Shown: positions 3,713 through 60,440 of the stretch, in pieces
How the letters are laid out: each line of letters opens with the position of its first letter
Position numbering within the stretch: position 1 is the stretch's first letter
Origin: Corallium rubrum
Lineage: Eukaryota > Cnidaria > Anthozoa > Scleralcyonacea > Coralliidae
Length of the DNA stretch: 64,000 bases
Assembly (NCBI GenBank): GCA_964035015.1
Contig: OZ036003.1
Location: forward strand, 8,448,830 to 8,512,829
Direction of reading: 5' to 3'
Translations under genes and position numbers: made by a program
The notes under the pieces: model-generated
Told to the model about the DNA's origin: nothing
What the model saw: the letters and a program-made list of their open reading frames with translations, nothing else
Databases searched by the model: none

Positions 3713-4244
3713 GTTCGTTCGTTCGTTCGTTCGTTCGTTCGTTCGTTCGTTCGTTCGTTCGTTCGTTCGTTCGTTCGTTCGTTCGTTCGTTCGTTCGTTC
3801 GTTCGTTCGTTCGTTCGTTCGTTCGTTCGTTCGTTCGTTCGTTCGTTCGTTCGTTCGTTCGTTCGTTCGTTCGTTCGTTCGTTCGTTCGTTCGTTCGTTC
3901 GTTCGTTCGTTCGTTCGTTCGTTCGTTCGTTCGTTCGTTCGTTCGTTCGTTCGTTCGTTCGTTCGTTCGTTCGTTCGTTCGTTCGTTCGTTCGTTCGTTC
4001 GTTCGTTCGTTCGTTCGTTCGTTCGTTCGTTCGTTCGTTCGTTCGTTCGTTCGTTCGTTCGTTCGTTCGTTCGTTCGTTCGTTCGTTCGTTCGTTCGTTC
4101 GTTCGTTCGTTCGTTCGTTCGTTCGTTCGTTCGTTCGTTCGTTCGTTCGTTCGTTCGTTCGTTCGTTCGTTCGTTCGTTCGTTCGTTCGTTCGTTCGTTC
4201 GTTCGTTCGTTCGTTCGTTCGTTCGTTCGTTCGTTCGTTCGTTC
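3713..4244. repeat. perfect (GTTC)133 microsatellite
   Basis: 532 bp of GTTC repeated 133 times without an interruption that I can see. It has one CpG every four bases. Both strands read open as SFVR or NERT repeats, an artefact of a 4-bp unit containing no stop. Confidence 0.98.
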
Positions 4245-5426: not shown

Positions 5427-5788
5427 TTCCTTTCCTTTGCTTTGCTTTCCTTTGCTTTGCTTTGCTTTGCTTTCCTTTCCTTTCCTTTCCTTTCCTTTCC
5501 TTTCCTTTCTTTTCTTTTCTTTTCCTTTCTTTTCTTTTCCTTTCCTTTCCTTTCCTTACTTTCTTTCCTTCCCTTCCCTTCCCTTCCCTTCCCTTCCCTT
5601 CCCTTCCCTTCCCTTCCCTTCCCTTCCCTTCCCTTCCTTTCCCTTCCTTTCCCTTCCCTTCTCTTTCCTTTCCTTTCCTTCTCTTTCCTTTCCTTTCCTT
5701 TCCTTTCCTTTCCTTTCCTTTCCTTTCCTTTCCTTTCCTTTCCTTTCCTTTCCTTTCCTTTCCTTTCCTTTCCTTTCCTTTCCTTTCC
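5427..5788. repeat. pure polypyrimidine tract, (TTTCC)n and variants
   Basis: About 360 bp of C and T on the plus strand apart from isolated bases (a G in the first ~45 bp, an A near 5558), made of CTTTC, TTTCC and CCCTT words. Adjacent to a SINE tail. Homopurine/homopyrimidine tracts of this length can form triplex (H-DNA). Confidence 0.95.
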
Positions 5789-5792
5789 AAAG

Positions 5793-5830
5793 GGTTCTCC
5801 CTTTGACGAGTAAAATTATCTGTCGTAAAA
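5793..5830 (+). repeat. partial copy of the GAGTAAAATCGTCTGG dispersed repeat
   Basis: CCTTTGACGAGTAAAATTAT matches the central part of the 93-bp mini-element seen complete at 7359 and 60071. The hairpin half is lost. Confidence 0.55.
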
Positions 5831-5960
5831 ACTGTGTTTTCGTGAAAACACTGATGACATACAAATGAAGGAGCTGTTTTTGTTCTGAAAGGCCAAGCCC
5901 CAAGCTTCTTGTTTCTAGCAAAAACCAAAGCCAAGGATTGAAGAATTATAAATCTTGACC

Positions 5961-7197: not shown

Positions 7198-7490
7198 CAA
7201 GTACTCAAGTTCTCACAAGGTTGAAGGTTCAAGTCCCGTTCCCTGCATGTCTGGGAACTCAGGATTTTTCCTGACTACTTGCAGCTTGACAGTGGTAAAC
7301 TGCAATCTTAAATCTCGATTTACGTTGCATTTTCGTACTGGTCCCAGTTTGGTTTTAACTCTTTCTTGTCCGAATTGGTCTTTAGTATTTTATTCTGGCT
7401 AACGCCAGACGATTTCATTCACCTCTGGGGAAGCCCCCGGACAGGAATGAGTTAAGATATATTCTTACACTCGAGATTTTCCTTCACCAA
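7198..7490 (+). mobile_element. tRNA-derived SINE, interrupted
   Basis: A B-box-like GGTTCAAGTCCC lies at about 7226. The downstream words TTGCATTTTCG, CCCAGTTTGGT, then TATTCTTACACTCGAG and TTTTCCTTCACC parallel the better-preserved tRNA-SINE at 59239-59392. The two 3' parts are separated by a 93-bp element at 7359-7451. Confidence 0.65.
7359..7451 (-). mobile_element. 93-bp TTAA mini-element inserted in a SINE
   Basis: Flanked by TTAA at 7355-7358 and 7452-7455. On the minus strand it starts CTCATTCCTGTCCG and ends CGGACAAGAAAGAG, giving imperfect TIRs. The core ATCGTCTGGCGTTAGCCAGA contains a 6-bp-stem hairpin (TCTGGC GTTA GCCAGA). The sister SINE at about 59351 has an unoccupied TTAA at the same point. 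Length is the same as the copies at 60071-60391. Confidence 0.8.
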
Positions 7491-9205: not shown

Positions 9206-9498
9206 TAAGGTCTTCAGACTCATTTCGGTAAAGCGCTCTCAATTCGTCAGAATTTTTGCTACAAAAATAAAATAGTTATCGTTAGAAAGCTATTAATTTG
9301 TAGAATATAGTGTTGTATTTAAAACTTAATTTAAAAATTCACAACTATCCTTGGTTTGTATTTTTCGCAAAATCAAAGACAACATTGTATTCTACATATT
9401 AATAGCTTTCTAACGATGTCTATTTTATTTTTGCATAAATTCTGACGAATTGAGAGCGCTTTACCGAAATGACTCTGCAAACCTTAACGAAGACCTTC
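9206..9498. mobile_element. foldback element, internally deleted
   Basis: Arms of about 140 bp: TAAGGTCTTC at the left, GAAGACCTT at the right, with AAAGCGCTCTCAATTCGTCA inside. A shorter relative of 12666-13328. It interrupts a dispersed repeat that is intact at 4835-5000. Confidence 0.8.
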
Positions 9499-11215: not shown

Positions 11216-12553
11216 TGAACGCCTGAGTCAACAGGCCGAAAGCTTAGCAAAGAAATATTTTACGTGGTGCTTCCACAAAACTTATTTATATAAACTTTAA
11301 GTATTAGATAAAGCATGAGCAACCGATCTGTATGTGATTTACAAGGCGAGACGCTGTAAATCAGATACAGATCGGTTGCGAATGCTTTATCGTGCTTATC
11401 AAATGGACGCATCTAAATAGCCATGTTTTCAAACTATTTTTCAAGTTGGGGTGATTTTAGCTAAGTAAATTGAGGAAAAAGTTTATGTAAATCAGAACGA
11501 ATCTGTATGCGATTTACAGATCTTGATTTCTTTTGAATTTTCTTCATGAGTGAGGGGAAGCTATTAACACCGCAGTTGGGGGCATGTAATTCCGCGTTAC
11601 AATGGTAACGGACCAAAAACTGTGTTTTCTTATGAGCGGTAATGTTATACATCATATTCAGTGGAATTCCACTGTCTGGAACGCTCAAGGGAAACGCGTA
11701 TTTCGAGTTTATTCAGAAGAAACAACTGTTAAAGCGAAATACGTGATAACCCAGTTATCTACTGTATTATAGAAATGGATATGGTATGTGTGTGTGTATT
11801 ACTTCTAGAACATTACAAGTTTGTGGGATAGAATCTTACAGTCAGAATGGAAATACCTTCCCACTTCTTCTTCTGTAGTTCGTTGCGTATTACTGTAAGG
11901 ACTTTAAGATTCAGACAACGGACTACGGCTACGGTAGAAAGTGTAACAGTGATATTAAATGGTGGTGTATTTATACATTTAAATTTCAAGATACATTATC
12001 GCACGGACTCGCCTTGTTCTTAAATTCTTGAAGAGATACACTTGTTCAATCTATGTTAGTCACGAGAGTAACGTTAAGCTTTCCCAAGGCTTCTGTAGTG
12101 ACTCAGGTTCCGCGTTGTCTTTACAACGTAAAAATGCTTTTTCTACGTTGTCAACAGAGTCACGACGGCATGAAAATTACTCTCGGGACCGTCATTTGCA
12201 AAAGTTCTTTGTATTTGACATAAAATTCTATTGTTCAAACACGTTGCCGTAGTCGTAGTCGTTGTGTTTTCTTAAAGTCCCTGATATTTCTGTAGCCGCT
12301 ACCGAAGCCTGAGAAAATTTTGTTGAAAACTGTACATAAATAGTATAATTTAGCTTTAAATGGCATTTAATCATAATACAATAGATGTTTATCCCAAATC
12401 GATACCAACAGACGAATAACATCAAGAATTAGCGACTTTTATCGCTAGATTTTTCTCACGTTTCGGTAGCGGATACAGAAATACAGTAATACACAACCAA
12501 CTACAGAAGCGGGAAGGTATTTCCATTTTGACTGTGAAGGGTTTTCTCCCTTT
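11216..12553. other. intron sequence with short inverted repeats
   Basis: ACCGATCTGTATGTGATTTA (about 11310) and AAATCAGATACAGATCGGTT (about 11356) form a hairpin. Otherwise nothing is recognised. Confidence 0.4.
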
Positions 12554-12592
12554 AACGAATAAAATCGTCTGGCATTAGAGTAAAATAATGTA
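12554..12592 (+). repeat. partial 93-bp mini-element core
   Basis: ACGAATAAAATCGTCTGGCA followed by GAGTAAAATA. The hairpin arm is shortened. Confidence 0.5.
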
Positions 12593-12665
12593 GCGTTATA
12601 GTCTTATAATAACAAAGGGTCGTTTTTGACTGGCTCATGCAGACAGGAGTAACTTAATGGCATGT

Positions 12666-14910: not shown

Positions 14911-15333
14911 ACTGTTATAAGCCCTAATTAAACGGGAACGCAAGTCATCGCAAGTTGGCAGTCACGCTATCTCAGCGAGCCGTTCTGAATAATTTCTCGA
15001 AAATATTATACACCGTGACAAAGTTAAAACTTGTTTAAAACACTCATGAAACCTTTATTTTGTTAATTTGGGTCTTCGAACGACCGCCACAGAAATTCGT
15101 GACTGCCAACTTGCGTTCTCGTTTGATTACCGCCTCAATTAAGCCGATAATTCAAAAAGTAAGAAATAAAACAAATTCCAGAGGTCTTAATTACATCGTT
15201 GAAATAACTTATCCTTTCTTGTTTCCCGCCTTTACTTATAAGTTTCGTGCTTTTTGTGCGCGCTGTCATGACGGGTATAGAAACACTGGAAATGTACGTT
15301 ATACCGGCTTAATACGTTAGTACTTTCACCTCA

Positions 15334-16548
15334 GAGTTTGTAAAGTTTTGTTAGTTCTTGCTGCACAAGCTGTCGTTAGTTAGTATAGTACTTTCAGTTT
15401 GAAGTTTGTAATGTTTTGTTAGTTCTTTCTGTACAAGCTGTCGTTAGTTAGTATAGTACTTTCAGCTTGGAGTTCAAAGACAGCTTTACAGCAAGAACTA
15501 ACAAAACTTTACAAACTACAAGCTGAAAGAACTATACTAACTAACGACAGCTTGTACAGCAAGAACTAACAAAACTTTACAAACTCCAAGCTGAAAGAAC
15601 TATACTAACTAACGACAGCTTGTACAGCAAGAACTAACAAAACTTTACAAACTCCAAGCTGAAAGTACTATACTAACTAACGACAGCTTGTGCAGCAAGA
15701 ACTAACAAAACTTTACAAACTCCAAGATGAAAGTACTATACTAACTAACGACAGCTTGTGCAGCAAGAACTAACAAAACTTTACAAACTCCAAGCTGAAA
15801 GTACTATACTAAGTAACGACAGCTTGTGCAGCAAGAACTAACCAAACTTTACAAACTCCAAGCTGAAAGTACTATACTAACTAACGACAGCTTGTACAGA
15901 AAGAACTAACAAAACATTACAAACTCCAAACTGAAAGTACTATACTAACTAACGACAGCGTGTACAGCAAGAACTAACAAAACTTTACAAACTTCAAGCT
16001 GAAAGTACTATACTAACTAACGACAGCTTGTACAGCAAGAACTAACCAAACTTTACAAACTCCAAACTGAAAGTACTAACTAACGACAGCTTGTACAGCA
16101 AGAACTAACCAAACTTTGCAAACTCCAAGCTGAAAGTACTATACTAACTAACGACAGCTTGTACAGCAAGAACTAACAAAACTTTACAAACTCCAAGCTG
16201 AAAGTACTATACTAACTAACGACAGCTTGTACAGCAAGAACTAACAAAACTTTACAAACTCCAAGCTGAAAGAACTATACTAACTAACGACAGCTTGTAC
16301 AGCAAGAACTAACAAAACTTTACAAACTCCAAGCTGAAAGAACTATACTAACTAACGACAGCTTGTACAGCAAGAACTAACAAAACTTTACAAACTCCAA
16401 GCTGAAAGTACTATACTAACTAACGACAGCTTGTACAGCAAGAACTAACAAAACTTTACAAAGTCCGAGCTGAAAGTACTATACTAACTAACGACAGCTT
16501 GTACAGCAAGAACTAACAAAACTTTACAAACTCCGAGCTGAAAGTACT
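15334..16548. repeat. 68-bp satellite array with an inverted head
   Basis: The unit (for example CTAACGACAGCTTGTACAGC to the next occurrence, 15541 to 15609) is 68 bp. Two units lie in reverse orientation (15334-15475), then about 16 in forward orientation (15484-16548). Copies differ by few substitutions and one deletion near 16075. It ends about 100 bp before the exon at 16647. Confidence 0.95.
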
Positions 16549-16646
16549 ATGAAAACGCGGCTTTTGACCAATGAGACACTTTGTCTTACTGAAGTATATT
16601 TGTATAGTAAAAACCATAAGACATTCTTTTGTACTTTACCCTGCAG

Positions 16647-17322: not shown

Positions 17323-17652
17323 ACAATAAACCAACTGTAGCAGAAGAAGAATGCATTAAGATCAAACTTTAGTTGGCGATAAGATTAAATCTTACTTTTT
17401 GGCAGCATCGGATTCTCGAATCTTATTTATCTTAATCTGGCTTAACTTCACACGATTTTTCTCGTCACGGAGAAAATCCATTGATGGGGAAAGGGATAAG
17501 CAATTGCCATCAGAAAGTGCCAAAGATTATAAATACATAAGAAAGTCCAAACATGAGATACACACCTTAAGCTGTATATAGGCGCGGTAAAGCAGATTTC
17601 TGACAAGGCTTAAGGTTTGGGGGGACCCAAAAAAGCGCATGCCAAACGAACA

Positions 17653-17963: not shown

Positions 17964-18156
17964 AACAAAGAAGCTTAATATGGCGAGCCGGGCTTGATTA
18001 TTGTGCCAGTCGAACGTGCAGGTGATGAAAATATCGGTATCATTGGTGACGAATGTCTCAACCACAATTTTTTCTAAACTCTATTTTTGGCCTAAAAAAC
18101 TAATAAATAAAGTCAATAATTAAACACTTTTGGTATGCTCAAAATGTAGCCTGCGT

Positions 18157-18167
18157 CCCTTGACACA

Positions 18168-18200
<33 letters not shown>

Positions 18201-18207
18201 ACTAAAG
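18157..18207 (+). repeat. partial 93-bp mini-element core
   Basis: AGTAAAATGGTCTGGCGTTA then GACAGAGTAAAATACTAAAG. TTAA flanks are not seen. Confidence 0.55.
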
Positions 18208-20549
18208 TCTGCTTGGTTTGAAAACGAACGATACGCTCGGCAAAGAATTAAGGGGAGTCAAACCATTCTTAATATATGCATTTTTTATTTGAAGTTTTGT
18301 TGAAAACACTTAAAAAGACATGTGCTCACCGCATGCGTCATTTTTTAAACGGAAGCCAAGCAGGTGCGCTGGTGGTACTGGAATATTGACATTCTAAAGT
18401 GAATATGATGTTGTTTTTTTTCCGAACTTTGTTGGCCTTTTTATCCGTTTAAGATAGTTATAATAATCACCCAAGCAAAAATTAGTGAAAATAAAAGAAA
18501 AGAAATTAAAAATTTAAAAAAATAATTAAAAATTAGACTGCAGCGAAAGAGGTACAGGTATATTTAAGAGCTAAATCTCGCTTTTCGTCAGGAATTATTT
18601 TTTGGTGGCAGTACAAGAAATGATGAATTAATGAAAAGGACTTGAACACTCAGGTTTTGTCAGAGGTTCCACTGTCGCAGTACCTCGCAGGCTATTTTTA
18701 TCAGTTTGACAGTTCTGGTCAGAAGTATCCTAAGAGTGCCATCGACTTTGAACTACGGTTCAGTGCTAAAAATTGGCGAGGTAGAGTGGTCTCCCATAAT
18801 GACACCGAAAACAGTTAAAACATCCGCTAAAACAACATTGTATATTTACCAAATCTTTTTAAGAGGGACATATACATTGTATACACAATTAAATTAACTT
18901 ATGGGTGTTGGCAGCACAGTGCTTAGCGTGGTCGGTGCCGTTATCTGATTAAAATTTCATCTTAATGGTCGCATGTGAGAAGAGTGCTTCCAGTTTGCCT
19001 TACCAAACACCACAGCTTTCTTCCTTGTAGCCCAGTTTCCTCTTGTAGTAACACTGGACAAATGAGGGGTGGCCTTTGCTAGACCTCTAGGGAGCTTAGA
19101 TATGACTGATAGGGTTGTCCAGTATAAATAAAGTCGGCTGTTGATACCAATTGATAGGTGCTATGGATGTCCGCTCGCGGTTGAGCGGGATACAGAGCGA
19201 CCAAGTACTATCGGAAGACACAATACCGATTTCTAAACAGCATAGCACAACAGAGACGTATCGTCTCGGCTTCAGGAAGTTGTGGCGTATTTGTGGCATG
19301 CCGTTAATCGCTTTTATGCTGCTTATCTGGAAAATCTTATTTTTTGAATTTCTTTTATATGTTTGTGTCAGCTTAGGACTTGTATCAATAATCAACATGT
19401 GTGTCATGTTTTAACACTGGTTAGTGTTGGTGAAATCTGACATTTGGCCAGGATTAGGAGTTTAATTCTGAGAGTGAGCTGTGTGAAGATCGCACATTTT
19501 TCGTTAGCCACAAGGCAGAGACGTCTCTATAAATGTTTTAGATATGTCTATCTTTCGAGTTATTGACGTTTGACATCTTGACAGGGTGGAACTTTTATCC
19601 TGAGTTGTGACGTTGTGAATATGGGACATTTTTCGTTAGCCAGAACTGTGGCAGAGTTGGAAAAGAAGCTTTTGTTTATTTGAGTTAGTTTAGCACTCTT
19701 TCGTGAACGCATAGTCCCTAGAATTAAAGTGAACGGAATACAGCAACAGATTAGGAGCCCAATTGATACAGGTTTCTAGTGCCATCGATTTAAACTCGTT
19801 AATCGAGAAGACTGGAAAGTCCTATCATTTGCTTGTTGTTACAAAGGTAGCACTTTCTCTTCAGTTATTTTAAGCTTGAGTGGTAGTCCGACCAAGGATT
19901 GAACAGTGTAACCACTAGACTACAACTGCTGGTATATGCGAGTACCACTAAGAGAAGAACTAGAAGGTTTACTAACACCACACCAAACAATTTAGAATCT
20001 GACGAAGTTATTATCAAATTAGGTGCGTCCTTTAATCAAAAGGATATAGTCAACACCAAAACCCTTTGGATCGCATAGTCAAGCAAGCTAGCCTTCTTCA
20101 AATACTGAGTGCATGCATGTATTCCGTTTATTTCGGTATATTGTTTGTCGCCCATGCTGGAGAGCACGGAGCATGCACCTGGGGCTATATACGTGATGTG
20201 CATTCAATGCTCTTGAATCTAGGATATCCGAGTTTACCAAGGAGGACCCTGGATTGACCTTGGATGGGGGGGGTGAGGCAGAGAGGGAATATATTGATTT
20301 GCAGCAAAACATTGGCTAACCAACAAATACACAGCAGGTAGTCGAGAGTAGTTAGCAGCAACTAGTGGCAGACTATAGCAGTCCCAAACTTGCTCAGGGA
20401 AATCTGGAAACAACGTGACCCCTAGGAGTAACGTTACCAAAGCCAAATTCCTGTTAGTTCTCGGAAGGTTGGGAATACTTGAAATCGTCTCCGGCTCTGG
20501 AGGAGGGGTGGAAAACTAGAAAGAAAATTTAAAAAAAACTGTATACCAA
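18208..20549. other. intron sequence, mostly unrecognised
   Basis: No supported gene. A minus-strand tRNA-like relic lies at 19874-19932 (B-box-like GTTCAATCC and TAGTCTAGTGGTTA). The small open frames at 19151-19414 and 20066-20257 have no recognisable features. Confidence 0.4.
19874..19932 (-). repeat. tRNA-like relic
   Basis: The minus strand reads TGTAGTCTAGTGGTTACA (A-box-like) and then TGTTCAATCCTTGG (B-box-like), closer together than in a real tRNA. Possibly a decayed tRNA-SINE head. Confidence 0.3.
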
Positions 20550-21127: not shown

Positions 21128-21500
21128 ATAGTTTATTTTTATTTTTGGAACTGTATAACACGGGTTTCCATTATTTTTTGTCGTTTTGTGCTTAACAGAC
21201 GTACTGTGCATGTCTGAGCGTTGTTCTGAGGAGTAAAATCACACGGCTTTAGCCTTTAGACAGAATCAAATAGTCTGTTCAGTTTGACCGGCTTAGGCAA
21301 GGGTGGATAATTGAATAAGCCTGTTTGGATTTTTTTATGCATGGTTTGGAAACTTGATTTTTGGTTGTTAGCATCAATTTAAGATTCAGATTATCATCAA
21401 GAACAGTCATTGAGCAAGAGTTGTCCTAGCAAAAGACCGGAGCGTTTGAAATCATGAAAGGTATCTTCAATTCCTTACTCCGGTCTCAATCTCGGGTGAT

Positions 21501-26800: not shown

Positions 26801-29749
26801 TATTTTGTGCATAGTAACATTCCTTCAAGTTATAATACAAGTAAATGGAAATTAAAGGCACAGTGTTAGGTATTAAATTACCGCTTAATTAATAGTTTTG
26901 CGTGAGACAAAAATTCTATTTGTGTGCAAAGGAAAGGAATAATATTCTTAAAACGTTAAAAGAGTAAGTTATTAATGCGTTTTCTTACGGACTATTTAGT
27001 CTAAGATTTGACATGTGTGATATTCATCATAATTTTAATCATGTAAACTTATCCACGAAGATTTTCAAGTTTGCGTCATGGTGAAACTGGCTTTAAATAT
27101 ACGAAAATACTAGAAAATATACAAAGAGTTAATTAAATAAATATTTAGTTCTGTCACGGAAAATAGCAATTAAATAATTTAGCCTTAGGAGGCTTTTAAG
27201 ATCGGTCTATAACTTAAATCATTCCTTAAGAAAACGAACACACGAAAAACACGCACATTCAGATTGCTTTTGATTCGGTCGTTTTTAGTTCTATATTAAT
27301 CTCACTGGTGTGAATTGGCTTTCGAAGATGCTGTGTGAGTCTACATAATGTTTTCACTCTGAAAAGTGTGGCGTCGAAGTAGCGTTTTAAATGAAGCTTG
27401 TCTTATTAAACTTCATTGGCCGGCTATTTCTCAGTATACCGCTCTACTCTAAGTAACTAAATCGTTGGCCTTGCTACAGAATTCTCAATTCTGTATACGC
27501 TAACCTGTAATCATTATAAAATGATGAAATCATTATAAAATGATTAATTTGTCTGAATTAAATTCTTTGTATAAAACGACAGTCACACGTCGACTTATTG
27601 ACGAAGCTGTTTAATGCGAATTAAATTTGTTTGAATCAAATTCGACAATTCTTCGACGTTTGAGCAGGCCTGAGCAAATAGTTTGACTTTGTCGATATTT
27701 ACTATTTATAGTAACCTATTCATGGTCGCAACTTTAACAATAGTTACTCTTTTGTGTGTATTAAATCTGTCACAACATGTAAAAGTGACCTTTGATTCGC
27801 TGGCGTTATATATTTTTGAATAGTCGTCCATGACCTTGACGAGTTCGCAATAGATGACAGTTTTTACAGACTCGCGGTGCCGAATTTGTCCCAACAAGAC
27901 ATAACATGCCTATTGTTTTGCAATCACGTCTGAAACGAGGAAATATCTTTCGCAATATTCTTAATCCAATTTCTGAAGACGAATATGGGCTTCATAAACG
28001 ATGCGAGATATTTGGCTCTTAGGTTATATTTATAATGTCAGTGATAAGAGCCCAGAGGATAGAGAAGTTAAAATAACTTAACAAATGTGTTATCTTAATA
28101 AATGATTTAAACATGCCGCTCCGCTTCGAGTTTTATGCTAGGCTTTATTTATTACAAGATTATGTTTTCCGCCTTGTGAATCTGTTGCTCATATCCTAAA
28201 GATAGATTATAATGTGATTTCCTCCCCCCCCCCCCCCAAACTTTCCTCCAGTCTTGTTGCTTTCCATGTTTCTTTGAACTTTAGTCGTTGTCTGTGATCT
28301 TATAAGATAATTGCTATACGAAGAAACTAGAGTCCCCATTCTCCTTTGAGCAATACTAACGCCTAAATTATACAGTTATATTAAACACAATGACATAAGA
28401 AACGTTATTGTAATGAACAGTAGTTGCGAACCTTTCGAAACGTATGTCGTTTTGCGATTGACTTGCGAAATGTTAGAATTGTTGAGATTTTTGCTATTGA
28501 TATCAATCATTACGAATTTTATGATAAGCCCTGAGGGTGTTCCTCTGTTATTTCATTTCAACACGAGATCTATGATCAAGTCGTTCTTCGGATGCACGCT
28601 TTGCTAAGGAAAGGATAGAAACAACATGAATGTTCTTAAGATTTTATAGATACGAAAGGCGGTTTTCCGTCTTTTCTCCATCTTTTCGATTTTCTAAGCT
28701 TTTTTTCCAGTTCACCTCTCGTATAAAATACTTCTTCGAAATATAGTCTTTGTGACAAAATTCCACAGTACAGCTGAACACTTTCAATATATTGTGCAAT
28801 GCAGTCTACTTATAATAAACTATAGACAATCTGATACTAAATGCCAACGGCAGAAAACTAATCAGTCTGAATATTTCAGTTACATACTTTCATTTTTCAC
28901 AGACCACTTTCATTTTGCATCTTATCTTAACCGAATGTCCATGCCATATGGCATGCGTTTTTAAATCTTTTTGTTTTAAAAATACTTGAAAATGTTTGCG
29001 TTCACGTCATCGTATGTGAAGAGCTTGTTCACAACTGTTTCCAGAGGTGAAAATGGAGACTTTCTTCTTTCAAAGATGTAATCAAATTTAATAGCATCAA
29101 AACTAAATTTTATTCATCGATTTAGCTTGACAATATTGATTGCTAGTAACAATGATACTGAGATCATATAACAACGTAAGAACTATATTTACGGATTCCT
29201 GGCTTACGTAATTCTTCAATCCGAAAATCGGAAACGCGCACTGCTTGACGTTGTCTGCCCTGGCTTTTATCTTGCCAAGTCGAACTTACAACAGCCGACC
29301 GATGTGTATTGCTTATTGGGAATTTGCCAGTTGGTGAAGTTCTAAACCTGCGACATTAACATTTATCTCATAGCGGAAAAGCGCGCGACTTGACGTCAGC
29401 TCCCATATAGCTTCTAGCCTGAAAAGTCAAATTGTTTAACAAGAGCCGCCGTTGTTTATTGGGAATCTGCCAGTGCCTGCGCATAGAGTGACTTTGATAG
29501 TCCGACTTGTGACTACAATTCTGATCACTCCTGGCTTCCGGCTAAAGGATTGACTGTTGGACACCAGTCCACTCATCCGATTTGTATAAGATCCGAAATT
29601 CAGTGTCTCTACACTCTTTGAAGACTGATTTCCAAGATTTTCCGTATATACGAAGGTGTTGAAAGCGGAAAAGTTGAAACTCGATTAACTTTTATACACT
29701 ATACTTTAATTAAAGTAATGAATACGTTTTACTAAATGCGGTGTCTTTG
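23853..29749. other. about 5.9 kb of intron with nothing recognised
   Basis: AT-rich DNA without supported exons, tRNA genes or long repeats. A C-run is at 28228-28239. The small open frames on both strands lack codon-level or motif support. Confidence 0.5.
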
Positions 29750-29815
29750 TTAACCCTTTCTCGTCAGTAGAATCTCCCGGTGACCAGTAAAATCGTCTGG
29801 CTTTAGTCAGAGAGG
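29750..29815 (+). mobile_element. 93-bp mini-element, 5' part
   Basis: Begins TTAACCCTTTCTCGTCAGTA and includes AGTAAAATCGTCTGGC. The right terminus and second TTAA are missing. Confidence 0.6.
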
Positions 29816-30364
29816 AAAAGACATGACTTGGGAGGCACATGCCTCCCAGAAACAGCTAAAGCTGATATTGTGTACACAGGAGTTAATTATGTTTGAACTT
29901 TTCCGCGCGTAACACGTACGTAGAAAGCAGCCTTGAGGGTCGGTAGGAACACACTAAAGATTGCCAACGCGATGCGATTAGTCTTTTTTCTCCCCGGAAA
30001 AAAATATTGGACGCTATGCCTATGTATATAAGGATAGAGTGATTAATAGTGGCAAATGCAGTGTCTGTTTGCGTCGGTTTATTCATATTTGCGTTTATCG
30101 CAATTTCGAATCTACATTACACCGTATTTTTAACGATGGCCGCCATTTATATTCTTATGAACAATATATTTATATTCTTTATATAAATATATCATTTATA
30201 TTCTTATATTCTTATGAACAATAGTCAACTCAGCTGCATATGCATCGTCGACTATCAGCTCATAGACAAGCCAGGCTCGTTGTATAATTGTTAAATATAC
30301 GGTGTAAAATAGACGGTAGATCATAGCGTAACACCAGCATCAATAGTGGTATCTCGATTCTTAA

Positions 30365-30841
30365 AGTGTATGTGAAACGAAAATTTAGTTTGTCTTATTT
30401 GAAAGAACTCTTAAAATAATGGGGAATATCAATTTACATCTTTTTCATATTTTACTTAGTTCTTGAGATATTTAGACTTATGTGATATGCAAATGAGATA
30501 AGTTATGGTTCATTTTTTTCTAATTAACATATTCGAAAATCGTGAATATTTTTAAGATTATTGATCAAAATCACTTGTAGCTTGTCTTTCATGTTTAGTT
30601 GCATGAACTGTAGCGATATGCAAAGTTTCAAGTGATTTTGTTCAATAATCTTAAAAATATTCGCGATTTTCGAATATGTTAATTGGAAAAAAACGAACCA
30701 TAAGTTATCTCATTTGAATATCACATAAGTCTAAATATCTCAAGAACTAAGTAAAATATGAAAAAGCTGTAAATTGATATTCCCCATTATTTTAAGAGTT
30801 CTTTCAAATAAGACAAACTTAATTTTCGTTTCATATACACT
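30365..30841. mobile_element. 477-bp palindromic TTAA element
   Basis: TTAA at 30361-30364 and 30842-30845. The two halves are reverse complements over about 215 bp each (AGTGTATGTGAAACGAAAAT at the left end), with a central spacer of about 50 bp. Shares CTCAAGAACTAAGT with 35570-36049. Confidence 0.9.
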
Positions 30842-32514: not shown

Positions 32515-32752
32515 GTGGCGCCGGGCTGGCCCGGTTAACCGAGCTAGCCCGATTAACCGGGATGAGTTTACGAAACGATTACATGGACATTTTCATCCCG
32601 TTTAACCGGGCTAGCCCGGTTGCGACAACCGGGGTCCCGGCAAACCGGGCTAGCCCGCTTACCATGTAATCGAAATGTTAAAACAACATGCGTTTTATAT
32701 ATAAAGCGGGCTAGTCCGGTTAACCGAGCCAGCCCTGTCCATGTAATCGCCC
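32515..32752. repeat. cluster of GGGCTAGCCC / CGGTTAACCG palindromes
   Basis: At least seven copies or near-copies of GGGCTAGCCC and CCGGTTAACCGG words within 240 bp, interspersed with TACATGGA and CCATGTAATCG. The outer segments CTGGCCCGGTTAACCGAG and CTCGGTTAACCGGAC(T) are in inverted orientation. Confidence 0.8.
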
Positions 32753-33369: not shown

Positions 33370-33474
33370 GTAACTTGAAACTTTTGTTATAGTGGCAGTG
33401 GCCGAAGTTTTTAAGTGCGTTCGTTTTGGGGTTTTTCGGAATAAGGAATGGTCCCAAACGAACGTATCCTTTAA

Positions 33475-33547
33475 CTCCTTCACTACCAGGGGTCCCTTGA
33501 CGAGTAAAATCGTCTGGCGTTAGCCAGAGTAAAATACTAAAGGTGGG
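33475..33547 (+). mobile_element. shortened TTAA mini-element
   Basis: TTAA at 33471-33474 and 33548-33551. Core GACGAGTAAAATCGTCTGGC with the GTTA hairpin and GAGTAAAATACTAAAG. 73 bp instead of 93. Confidence 0.7.
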
Positions 33548-33884
33548 TTAAAAGCTGTAAAAATGTCATTTCTTTTTATTCAATTTTAGGCTCTTATATA
33601 CATAGCTTGGAAAGTTTTTAAATATATACACTAAAACTGTTGCGTCTGGTCTTGAAAGACCATGCATTTCTGCTAGGAGTTACCGACTAATTTTGAGTAT
33701 TTCATTACCTTCTCTATGCAGCTTTCTTTTTTACGTACGCGTTCATGAGCTAGCAACGTTTGTTTTCTTTTACCTCAGTGTTAATGCTATGCCTATCTGC
33801 GTATGAGTACACGTACAAAAATAGCGATGTATCAAAGCAAATATATTCCTTTATTTTTTTTTCGGTCCGTATCCTACCAAATCG

Positions 33885-42257: not shown

Positions 42258-42406
<149 letters not shown>

Positions 42407-47070: not shown

Positions 47071-47186
47071 GTAAGTTCAAATTTCCCGACAGTTAAATAT
47101 ATAGAATAATTTAAAGTAAATGTAGATTCGTATTGTATTAACTAACGTTTCAGGCAATATGTCATATGGATATACTAGGTAATTTT

Positions 47187-47935
47187 GGTGAAGGAAAATT
47201 TCGAGTGTAGAATATATATATACATTATAAGACCAAACCGGGATCAGTTGCGAAAAATGCAACATCAAGGCCCTCCGGCTAGGAATTGACCCTGCGATGT
47301 AGCCTAGTTTCTAAGCCTTCCTCGGTTGACACGTTTCGGAAGTGATCCGAACGGACCCGCTGGGGGAGGCCTAGCAACATTCGTCAACACTTTCACTTTA
47401 CAGCTCAGTTGTTTATTGAGGAAGAATTGTGATGTTATGACGTCCTAAGTGTTTCCCGACACTTACTATTTCCATCTGCATAAAATAATACAAGCCTACT
47501 CACCTCAGATCGACGAAGGTTCACTGGCCTAGTTTTCTTATCACTAGCTTTCCTTCTGCAACTGCCAAAAGTTGAAAGTTGGACAGTTAAATTTTCATTT
47601 CGAGCTCCAATTGGAATATATTCCATAATTTCCTTCTTTCGATCGCCCAGATCTTTGGTAAAATCTTCGCAGACATCCTTATGCTTTTTATATAATATAC
47701 TGTCGCTACGCTAGATCCCAGGAACACTCGAAGGGCCAGAACGATTCTGGGCCTAGCAACATTCGCAAAAAGGTCCTGCCTTCTCGTTTCCAGCCTCTCC
47801 CCAGTCTTCCAAAGAACCCAAACCGACTACGCGGCCAAGCTCATGACGGAAACGAAAGGCTTAGAAACTAGGCTACCTGCGATGCTAGTACAGTTGCTCT
47901 GACCACTGAGCTACGAACGCCGTTGCCAAGAGCCT
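47187..47935 (-). mobile_element. tRNA-derived SINE split by a DNA transposon
   Basis: On the minus strand: GTAGCTCAGTGGTCAGAGCA (A box, about 47900-47930), a 576-bp insertion, GGGTCAATTCC (B box), then GTTGCATTTTTCGCAACTG, CCGGTTTGGTCTTATAATG and TTTTCCTTCACC. Same family as 59239-59392. Confidence 0.85.
47300..47875. mobile_element. 576-bp MULE-like element in the SINE
   Basis: TIR TAGCCTAGTTTCTAAGCCT at the left, its reverse complement at the right, and a 9-bp perfect duplication CCTGCGATG (47291-47299 and 47876-47884). Internal GGCCTAGCAACATTCG appears twice. No transposase. Confidence 0.92.
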
Positions 47936-53725: not shown

Positions 53726-53885
53726 GTCCTAGAGTGACCCTTCTAGAAGGGTTACCCTTTGAAGCGAGTCAAAAGATAGCCCTTGTTTACATGGAGTAGG
53801 GTGACCCTTGTAACAGGGCTAACTCTTCTAGTAGGGTCACATTACTTCTGCGTGACCCTTTTACTATATTTTCGGTTTACATGGT
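53726..53885 (-). mobile_element. AGGGTNACCCT element, partial
   Basis: AGAGTGACCCTTCTAGAAGG, TTGTTTACATGGAGTAGGG and ACTATATTTTCGGTTTACAT match parts of 41555-41957 and 61136-61597 in the opposite order. Confidence 0.7.
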
Positions 53886-53904
53886 TGTCTGAGGGTTTGC
53901 CCTT

Positions 53905-53905
53905 G

Positions 53906-53941
<36 letters not shown>

Positions 53942-53950
53942 CAATAAAGG
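53905..53950 (+). repeat. partial 93-bp mini-element core
   Basis: GACGAGTAAAATCGTCTGGC then GACAGAGTAAAACAATAAAG. Confidence 0.6.
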
Positions 53951-54314
53951 AGCCGTTTTTGGTCAGCTCAGGCAGGCAGCAATGGGTTAATGTAATATGT
54001 AAGCTAGAAACCTTCTGGTGTGATTAGTGTTTAATGTATGATCAATGAGTATTAAATGATTAAATGTTGAGATAGGGGGGACTCCGTCGCCACGGCTTTG
54101 GCATTCATGTGTAGGCTTGGGTTACTAATTCAGTCCGACAAACTTCTTTTGTCCCAAGCAGTTGACCCGCTTGACTCGAGGCGTAAGTGGCGTTGGCCGA
54201 TTACAAACTTTACTTCCATTGCGACAAAGGAGCTTCCGCTATGCGATAAGGCCGACTGTATTGTCAGCTTGCTTGATAAATGATAACAGCGTGTGTTTTG
54301 CTGTTCCTTTCAAG

Positions 54315-54582
54315 GCCTGCGAGGAATCCTGCGCCGGTGACGTTGCCTATTACTGTTCGGAGGACTATCAAGCACTCGCCGACGACGAGGTTTCTGTCAA
54401 GAAGGGACAATTTGTCGAGATCATCGACAGCCCCGCGCATAGTCCACGATTAAAGGTACGCTTCGTGTCACGTGATTCTGATCCACAGACCAAAGAAGGC
54501 TGGATACCAACGGATGTCCTGCGACGCCAAGAGGAATCAAGACGAAGAAGAAACTCCGAAGGCTCTTTGTGTAGCAGTGAAG
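54315..54582 (+). CDS. trio: Trio exon: SH3-like domain
   Basis: Acceptor TCCTTTCAAG, donor G|GTGAGT; 89 codons plus 1 nt. DVAYYCSEDYQALADDEVSV and KKGQFVEIID give the SH3 RT-loop and second strand; EGWIPTDVL gives the C-terminal GW-P motif. The binding-site Trp normally found after the n-Src loop is absent (PRLKVRFV). An Arg/Ser-rich tail follows. Position right after GEF1 PH is that of Trio SH3-1. Confidence 0.9.
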
Positions 54583-56164
54583 GTGAGTGTGACTTCGTTT
54601 CAATCGCTTTCATTTTGTCCTCAAACCGTTACCACAGTTGCGTAAACACTAATGTTTTCGCAAAGATACCATCTATATGTTTGTCCATGCCTGTGTTCAA
54701 ATATAATATTTACTTCATGTTTAAGACTATTTCCTAATAATAAAATCTCAGTTTATCTGTCATTGCCAGAAGGTTAATTAAGAAGTACTGGACTACTGTC
54801 CACCCGGCTGACCGTCTTATGTTCTCAGGCAAAATTATATATACCTGTACTTTCTAACCACGAACTGCGCCTTACGGAAATACGAACGTAGGTTTTGTAT
54901 TTCGTGACCTGTGTGATTCGACGGCTCTCTCGTCATATACAGAAAATTACCCAATTCGTGGCCTTTATAGGAATCATACGTCTTGTGTAAGTCCAGCGTC
55001 GTGGTTTTCTTATATAAACGATCGTAACATATGGGTCTTTAATATTTGTTGTTATACGAGTTTTTCATATTTGGTGTATCGTGTTGTGTTACTTGAAACA
55101 TCACCCGAGTCAATGAGACTTCGAGGGTTTTGGACAGAATTTCTTTTGAAACGACGTTTAGCTTTAAAACCGAACTGAAATCTGTTTCGACTTGTTTCGT
55201 TACCAAATTAACCAGCTATCTATATTGTATGATGAAATCAGCGACCCGGGGTGTCTTCACTGTCTTGAAAGCACGCAGCCAAAGATTTGCTTTCAACCTG
55301 TTTGCTGTAAAGACATGCCTGGTGATGTTTCGTTTATTTGGTTTGTATTTCTGGTCAGTGGTTTGTCTGTGTCGTTGCTGTTGGTCTTATATTTCAACAA
55401 TAAAATTCCCCCACGAGTTCTTCCGTGACATTGCGATATTGCTTCCTGCTAACGACAACAAAGCATTGGATACCAAGAAACGATTTAAATATTTCGACCG
55501 AGCGCGTCTGCATGCGTTGGCAAGCAGCCGAGATTTCAGTCCGAGCATATAAACGAACGCGAAAAACTAAGCTTCGAAGCAAACACTGATTCATATTATA
55601 TTTTGTCTATCGGAGTGACCGGAATTCTCTGGATTATCAGAACCAATATTTAGCCAGATTTATACACTAGAATACCTATTAAATGATCTTTGTGAGAATT
55701 AATTCCCGACCACTTTTATGATTTCCGCTTGTTAAACAGTGTCAAATTTCTCAAAAATTACCTAAAAGAAATACCTCGTATTTCAAATTCGTTATCCTAT
55801 TCCATAAAAGCATCATAATAATACGATTTCGTCTATACTTTACGTTTAAATTGTTTTCAATGAGATTCTGGTTCTTCTTATTGCCTGGAAATGCAAGTTA
55901 AAAAACGGACGTGTGTATTCGCAGATTTGTATAGTCTGAACTAACAATCAGATAAGCTATCGTATAAGATATCAATTTAACAATAACAGTCTGGTGGCGT
56001 TTTTACCATTTTGACGGTCTTCTTAATAAATAAGGCGAATGGACAATCTGGAAATTCTTGATATCCGTTAAGATGCGTTAGGTATTTCATTTAAAGGCTG
56101 ATACCTTTGTCGTGTGAATATTTCATGGCATTTCAAACGTTCGGTATTCCTTTTGTGTATAAAA
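54583..56164. other. intron sequence, no supported gene
   Basis: The open frame at 55130-55552 (140 codons) has hydrophobic stretches but no motif, splice or homology support that I can see. Confidence 0.4.
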
Positions 56165-59238: not shown

Positions 59239-59392
59239 GCCCTCCGTGGCTCAGTGGTCAGAGCATTGCACTAGAATCGCAAGGTCGTGGGTTCAATTCC
59301 TGCCGGAAGGCCTGTGTAGTTGCATTTTTCGCAACTGTTCCCGGTTTGGTCTTAAAATGTATATATTCTACACTCGAATTTTCCTTCACCCA
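59239..59392 (+). mobile_element. tRNA-derived SINE, reference copy
   Basis: GTGGCTCAGTGGTCAGAGCA (A box) and GGGTTCAATTCC (B box) at tRNA spacing, then GTTGCATTTTTCGCAACTG, CCGGTTTGGTCTTAAAATG and TTTTCCTTCACC. Contains an unoccupied TTAA at about 59352 where the copy at 7198-7490 carries a 93-bp insertion. The anticodon stem is imperfect, so not a functional tRNA. Confidence 0.88.
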
Positions 59393-59657: not shown

Positions 59658-60440
59658 AGTGCTTGTATAAACCCAAATATGATATTACTGCATATGGATT
59701 CTATATAACGTGATTAGTTGAATGCCAAAATATTTTCTGACTTGAACTTCTATTTGTTGTTATATTGAGGTTTGTATTTCCAAAATGTTAATGAGGATGA
59801 CGTCAATGTAGGCATTTGTGTGTGTTTTTTTCTTTTCTTATGATAAACCGCTTGAAGATTTTAATGAAAAAATGACAAAATACAGAATATACTATTCAAG
59901 TATTCATTAACATGTGAATTGGGTAACATTTCTGCTGTAACGGAACACTGCGTATGCAAATTATGCCTACATAGACGTCACCATTACCATTTTGGAAATA
60001 CAAACGTCAATATAACAAGAAATAAAAGTTCAAATCAAACAATATTTTGGTACTCAACTATACACATTAACCCTTTATCGCCCAGTAGTCACTCCAATGA
60101 GGAGTAAAATCATCTGGCGGTAGCCAGAGTAAAATACTAAAGACATCGTTAGGCGATAAAGGGTTAACCGAGATAATCTATTAACCCTTTATCGCCCAGT
60201 AGCCACTCCATTGACGAGTAAAATTGTCTGGCGTTAGCCAGAGTAAAATACTAAAGACATCGTTGGGCGATAAAGGGTTAACCGAGATAATCTATTAACC
60301 CTTTATCGCCCAGTAGCCACTCCATTGACGAGTAAAATTGTCTGGCGTTAGCCAGAGTAAAATACTAAAGACATCATTGGGCGATAAAGGGTTAAATAGA
60401 ATCCATATGCAGTAATATCATATATGGGTTTATAAGCACT
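59658..60440. mobile_element. palindromic TTAA element with nested insertions
   Basis: TTAA at 59654-59657 and 60441-60444; ends AGTGCTTGTATAAACCCA and reverse complement. Arms continue through TTGGAAATACAAAC/GTTTGTATTTCCAA. The right arm is interrupted by the array at 60067-60395; without it the element is about 450 bp. Confidence 0.9.
60067..60395 (+). mobile_element. three tandem 93-bp TTAA mini-elements
   Basis: Period 114 bp: TTAA at 60067, 60181 and 60295. Each unit is CCCTTTATCGCCCA...TGGGCGATAAAGGG (14-bp TIR, one mismatch in unit 1) around GAGTAAAATTGTCTGGCG and its hairpin. Copies are separated by TTAACCGAGATAATCTATTAA. TTAA plus CCC termini resemble piggyBac-type ends. Confidence 0.93.

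Follow-up and report, generated by a model that had tools for sequence, protein, structure and literature searches.

Within the window analysed here, a 64,000-nucleotide stretch of Corallium rubrum contig OZ036003.1, a short sequence with TTAA on either side (7355..7455, plus strand) interrupts the tail of a SINE-like repeat. What is this sequence, and what put it there? A sequence-only reading had described it as a very small element inserted at TTAA into a tRNA-SINE, and had left its transposase family open between piggyBac and Kolobok.

The insert, its target and its surroundings

The insert is exactly 93 bp long (7359-7451), with TTAA at 7355-7358 and at 7452-7455, as had been claimed. It also has the imperfect terminal inverted repeats that had been noticed: the left one, CTCTTTCTTGTCCG (7359..7372, plus strand), pairs with the right one, CTCATTCCTGTCCG (7438..7451, minus strand), at 12 of 14 positions, and the 18-nt outer arms, TTAA included, show 89% complementarity. 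The termini read CTCT and, from the other strand, CTCA, and thus do not carry the CC[C/T]T motif of piggyBac elements. Both have CTC instead, a common deviation that looks more like a shared variant than like decay.

The target is a SINE-like tail (approximately 7319..7490, plus strand) that, once the element is removed, aligns with 59319-59390 and with 47185-47268 (minus strand). The first of these matches belongs to a sister SINE at 59239..59392 (plus strand), which has a tRNA-like head (59240-59311; 49.1 bits with Rfam, tRNA-Ser according to ARAGORN) and an empty site with the single TTAA that had been reported, at 59352-59355. The second, found by blastn and absent from the sequence-only reading, lies in a SINE tail at 47183..47297 (minus strand) that also lacks the element but reads TTATAA at the site, so that the target TTAA is visible in one of the two sisters. 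Rfam and ARAGORN, which both find the head at 59240, find none at 7198. Hence only the shared tail is established for the occupied copy, and the tRNA-SINE proposed for 7198-7490 is confirmed for its tail but not for its head.

After removal of 97 nt (the 93 bp and one TTAA), the local score rose from 25 to 42 with one sister and from 28.5 to 44.5 with the other, and with a block of this length the six best rows shown were those starting at 7355-7360, for both sisters. When the length was allowed to vary, the ten best removals were all of 85-95 nt, the best, which began at 7359 and took out 87 nt, having a summed score of 94.5, versus 86.5 for 97 nt. Shorter removals score higher partly because the right end of the element contains AATG, like the empty site. 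In the sister alignments, 4 or 8 nt adjacent to the TTAA find no match. That there was an insertion of about such a length at this site is clear, in agreement with the direct evidence of insertion that had been claimed. The exact border is not set by the sister alignment alone and rests on the TTAA and the terminal repeats. One window thus yields an occupied and an empty copy of a SINE, and this particular pair is new.

As to the surroundings, eight of the 44 ORFs of at least 110 aa listed in the window were scanned against Pfam. No piggyBac transposase was found among these eight, and five had no match at all. A RhoGEF domain was detected (E 1.1e-11), together with matches below the cut-off to a Kalirin-type SH3 domain (2.2e-5) and to a spectrin repeat (3.5e-5). 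Compared with solved structures, the ORF stretch 54300-54620 gave one weak match, to an obscurin SH3 chain (E 4.5e-4). The exon-like ORFs that match the spectrin repeat, the RhoGEF domain and the Kalirin-type SH3 lie on the plus strand between 1164 and 54737. Judged from these ORFs, one Kalirin/Trio-like animal gene possibly extends over a large part of the window, the repeats lying in its introns.

Several other repeats were observed. A 68-bp minisatellite at 15318-16550 is built of two oppositely oriented blocks: 15318-15474 (2.3 copies) aligns, as reverse complement, with the array next to it, 15479-16550 (15.9 copies). At about 30540-30670 there is an inverted-repeat element with arms of about 37 bp by eye, CGTGAATATTTTTAAGATTATTGATCAAAATCACTTG, which extend past the TTAA pair 30552/30654 and whose ends are unlike CMITE in appearance. 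Another inverted repeat lies at about 9280-9410, GAAAGCTATTAAT...ATTAATAGCTTTC; its arms measure about 30 bp by eye, and it is a candidate MITE or fold-back element. Palindromes of the CCGGGCTAGCCCGG type are repeated, partly in tandem, near TTAA at 32521-32735. The tract at 3713-4244 is (GTTC)n, perfect over 133 copies; other perfect tracts of tetranucleotides begin at 42260, 58028 and 58513.

Copies, conserved core and variable ends

The internal region of the insert matches that of the CMITEs, MITEs of about 100 bp described from Acropora millepora and A. palmata by Wang, Zhang, Meyer and Matz in 2010 (PMC2872659). Against the published 60-bp CMITE internal consensus, the segment 7380..7436 (plus strand) had a local score of 34, the best of 500 shuffles reaching 15. 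The same comparison was made for nine window copies, preselected by their likeness to the 7355 copy, against a consensus that is itself independent of the window; the two copies weakest in the profile search (5764 and 17416) were left out. All nine scored above each of their own 500 shuffles (27-44, the highest shuffle per copy being 14-18).

Six copies of the window went into the profile with which the copies were collected, and these match it by construction. With these six seeds included, the search of the window returned 11 copies at nine loci (E <= 6.6e-6), close to the 'about eight loci' counted previously, as well as a marginal match at 21214-21273 (E 0.023). With the 7355 element as query, blastn found eight other places in the window (E <= 0.006). 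Four copies are full-length, namely the 7355 copy and the three units of an array; all four are flanked by a TTAA target site duplication and measure 93 bp inside, or 101 bp with both TTAA. The others, recognized by the profile, are more or less incomplete. The copy at 33466..33550 (minus strand) has TTAA on both sides and a shortened left arm. At 53871..53957 (minus strand) the core is intact, the left TTAA lies further out and the right TTAA is not intact. The copy at 29745..29828 (minus strand) has the right end GAGAAAGGGTTAA, a decayed left end and TTAA only on the right, that at 18131..18215 (minus strand) has degenerate ends, and 12525..12611 (minus strand) is a degenerate core. Two degenerate fragments were found by the profile, one beside a (TCCTT)n tract at 5764..5847 (minus strand; E 4.8e-6), the other at 17416..17504 (plus strand; E 6.6e-6).

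The array (60067..60395, minus strand), identified by tandem-repeat and profile evidence and likewise absent from the sequence-only reading, comprises three 101-bp units (60295-60395, 60181-60281 and 60067-60167) separated by two identical 13-bp linkers, TAGATTATCTCGG. Its terminal repeats, CCCTTTATCGCCCA, match at 14/14, 14/14 and 13/14 positions in the three units, and its ends read CCCTTT, so that CC[C/T]T is present in each (CCCT). That the two linkers are identical suggests that the array arose by local duplication rather than by repeated insertion; slippage or unequal exchange, and not repeated transposition, would then account for its growth.

Comparison of the 7355 copy with the three array units showed that the core (positions 26-58) is identical at 30-31 of 33 positions, versus 8-9 of 14 at the left end and 7 of 14 at the right end. 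The core is thus more conserved than the terminal repeats, as in the published CMITEs. Within each of these elements, the two ends match one another at 12-14 of 14 positions. The ends therefore vary between elements and yet agree within each, as seen with two element types in one window.

The internal hairpin that had been noted, TCTGGCTAACGCCAGA (the reverse complement of the letters given then), is present at 7394..7409 (plus strand), where pattern scan and folding indicate a 6-bp stem. A search tolerating up to 3 mismatches gave 10 occurrences in the window, whereas 100 shuffles averaged 0.34; two of the 10 occurrences, at 19629 and 36326, are absent from both the blastn and the profile-search matches. 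Of eight copies examined, five have a perfect stem and three, like the published CMITE consensus, a stem with one mismatch; a second small hairpin beside it is perfect in two of the eight. Neither hairpin being strictly kept, a functional hairpin was rejected as an explanation: the mismatches in copies and consensus do not support a strict need for the core hairpin.

Origin of the element and alternative explanations

We considered the possibility that the inverted repeat at 7355 arose by chance, between two TTAA sites of a diverged SINE. All 535 TTAA sites of the 64-kb window were scanned for pairs spaced 76-126 bp apart whose inner ends match as inverted repeats at 10 or more of 14 positions. 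Seven pairs passed, four of them CMITE-like (7355 and the three array units) and three corresponding to other inverted repeats (9293, 30552 and 32602); these three, like the high frequency of TTAA, are what chance would have in its favour. Yet at this threshold 40 dinucleotide shuffles of the window averaged 0.075 pairs and never exceeded one, and none had a pair at 11/14 or more. As, moreover, the core is present at nine loci and matches a published element, coincidence is scarcely credible. It is also improbable that the element is a MITE of the Kolobok superfamily. Kolobok, too, targets TTAA, as do the Kolobok-type T2-MITEs of Xenopus, which are likewise non-autonomous (PMC6004289), and the absence of the piggyBac end motif from the 7355 copy would agree with this assignment. 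The same source, however, gives RR as the terminal bases of Kolobok, AG in Xenopus, and AGGRR as the start of T2-MITE ends, whereas the window ends start with CTC or CCC, and it is because of these terminal bases that we rank Kolobok second. Furthermore, the window core is the core of CMITE, and the authors who described CMITE connect it with piggyBac-like elements (PMC2872659).

A different reading, partly compatible with the one that we prefer, would regard the core as a self-contained unit, mobile or structured (a hairpin aiding its own copying, for instance), and the TTAA ends as a secondary acquisition, swapped from different transposons. This would fit a core that is far better kept than ends that are unlike between elements and alike within them. 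It would also fit the folding of single-stranded DNA, in which each of the four full-length copies beat all of its 200 shuffles (z -4.1 to -7.7). The fold strength comes mainly from the matching ends, where long terminal inverted repeats lead one to expect it. TTAA flanks all four intact copies, so that transposition via the ends suffices, and the mismatches in the core hairpin described above also argue against this reading, which we consider quite unlikely.

We conclude that the 7355 element is very probably a non-coding MITE of about 100 bp that shares the CMITE core and that was inserted into the TTAA of a SINE tail, with duplication of the TTAA, by a piggyBac-like transposase made elsewhere. 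Its structure, the TTAA on both sides, the sister with one TTAA and the core common to published CMITEs are direct observations, and the proposal of a very small element inserted at TTAA, here a non-autonomous one, is borne out. Insertion would have occurred by cut and paste, the TTAA of the SINE tail being duplicated in the process, and the transposase, probably of the piggyBac family, would have been supplied in trans from elsewhere in the genome. The choice of family, which had been left undecided, leans to piggyBac over Kolobok because of the CMITE core, linked by its authors to piggyBac-like elements, and the CCCTTT ends of the array; the CTC ends of the 7355 copy speak against it. Of the two features of piggyBac considered, TTAA is found throughout the full-length copies, and CC[C/T]T in the array units but not in the 7355 copy. 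A survey of piggyBac elements that cites the CMITE paper lists four conserved 5' motifs, CACTA, CCCTC, CCCTT and CCCAT (PMC10813416). The array ends fit CCCTT as well as CC[C/T]T, while the CTCT and CTCA termini are not among the four.

A nearly fixed core with ends that match within elements but differ between them is an unsolved oddity of the CMITEs. We suggest, tentatively and with more doubt than confidence, that selection preserves the core and not the ends, the core acting in cis, for example as an internal transposase-binding site or as a transposition enhancer. If this were true, a cis-acting core would let several piggyBac-like transposases move one small parasite while both of its ends co-vary. 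The authors of the 2010 paper already speculated along these lines (PMC2872659); to this the window adds two further end types with that core, of which one departs from the end motif usual in piggyBac.

Relation to published elements

A search of the literature for the letters of the core and of the SINE matched only the CMITE paper (PMC2872659), and papers naming both CMITE and coral comprised, besides this one, a paper on barnacles (PMC8561864). In exact-pattern scans, from which the window's own genome or a very near one was possibly excluded, the core had no match in viral contigs or in bacterial and archaeal genomes, and the SINE tail had none in viral contigs.

The 2010 paper reports TTAA duplications and terminal repeats that vary more from family to family than the internal region does. 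It also describes tandem arrays whose linkers are highly similar and a pair of alleles with and without the element; it links CMITEs to piggyBac-like transposons, one family sharing its terminal repeats with AmiPB1 (PMC2872659). The window elements resemble CMITEs in their size of about 100 bp, their TTAA duplication, their homologous internal region, their core more conserved than their ends, their array with similar linkers (60067-60395) and their occupied/empty pair. In detail, sizes are 96-108 bp in Table 1 of that paper, which leaves unstated whether TTAA is counted, versus 93 bp inside and 101 bp with TTAA in the window.

Further differences lie in the ends. Neither CTCTTTCTTGTCCG nor CCCTTTATCGCCCA occurs among the six families of Table 1. 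When seven window ends (four copy types besides the 7355 copy and the array) were compared with the six CMITE left-end consensuses, the best score per end was 8-11 over 13-14 positions; none of the seven equals a published left-end consensus, which bears on the family and not on the group. The CC[C/T]T motif, which the paper ascribes to all families, is also absent from the 7355 copy, although family III (CCCC) and the right end of family VI in its own Table 1 depart from it (PMC2872659). As the motif is missing, we call the element 'CMITE-like'. It is real, but it is of a kind that has been in print since 2010 and is largely ordinary; what is new here are the end sequences and the occupied/empty pair, the terminal-repeat types extending the described CMITE group.

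The array ends have counterparts among the piggyBac-like elements AmiPB1-6 of A. millepora, several of which have CCCTTT-type ends in Table 2 of the same paper, the left end of AmiPB2 matching the array end at 12 of 13 positions. In contrast to the window elements of about 100 bp, AmiPB1-6 encode transposases, and the four full-length ones measure 2.2-3.7 kb (PMC2872659).
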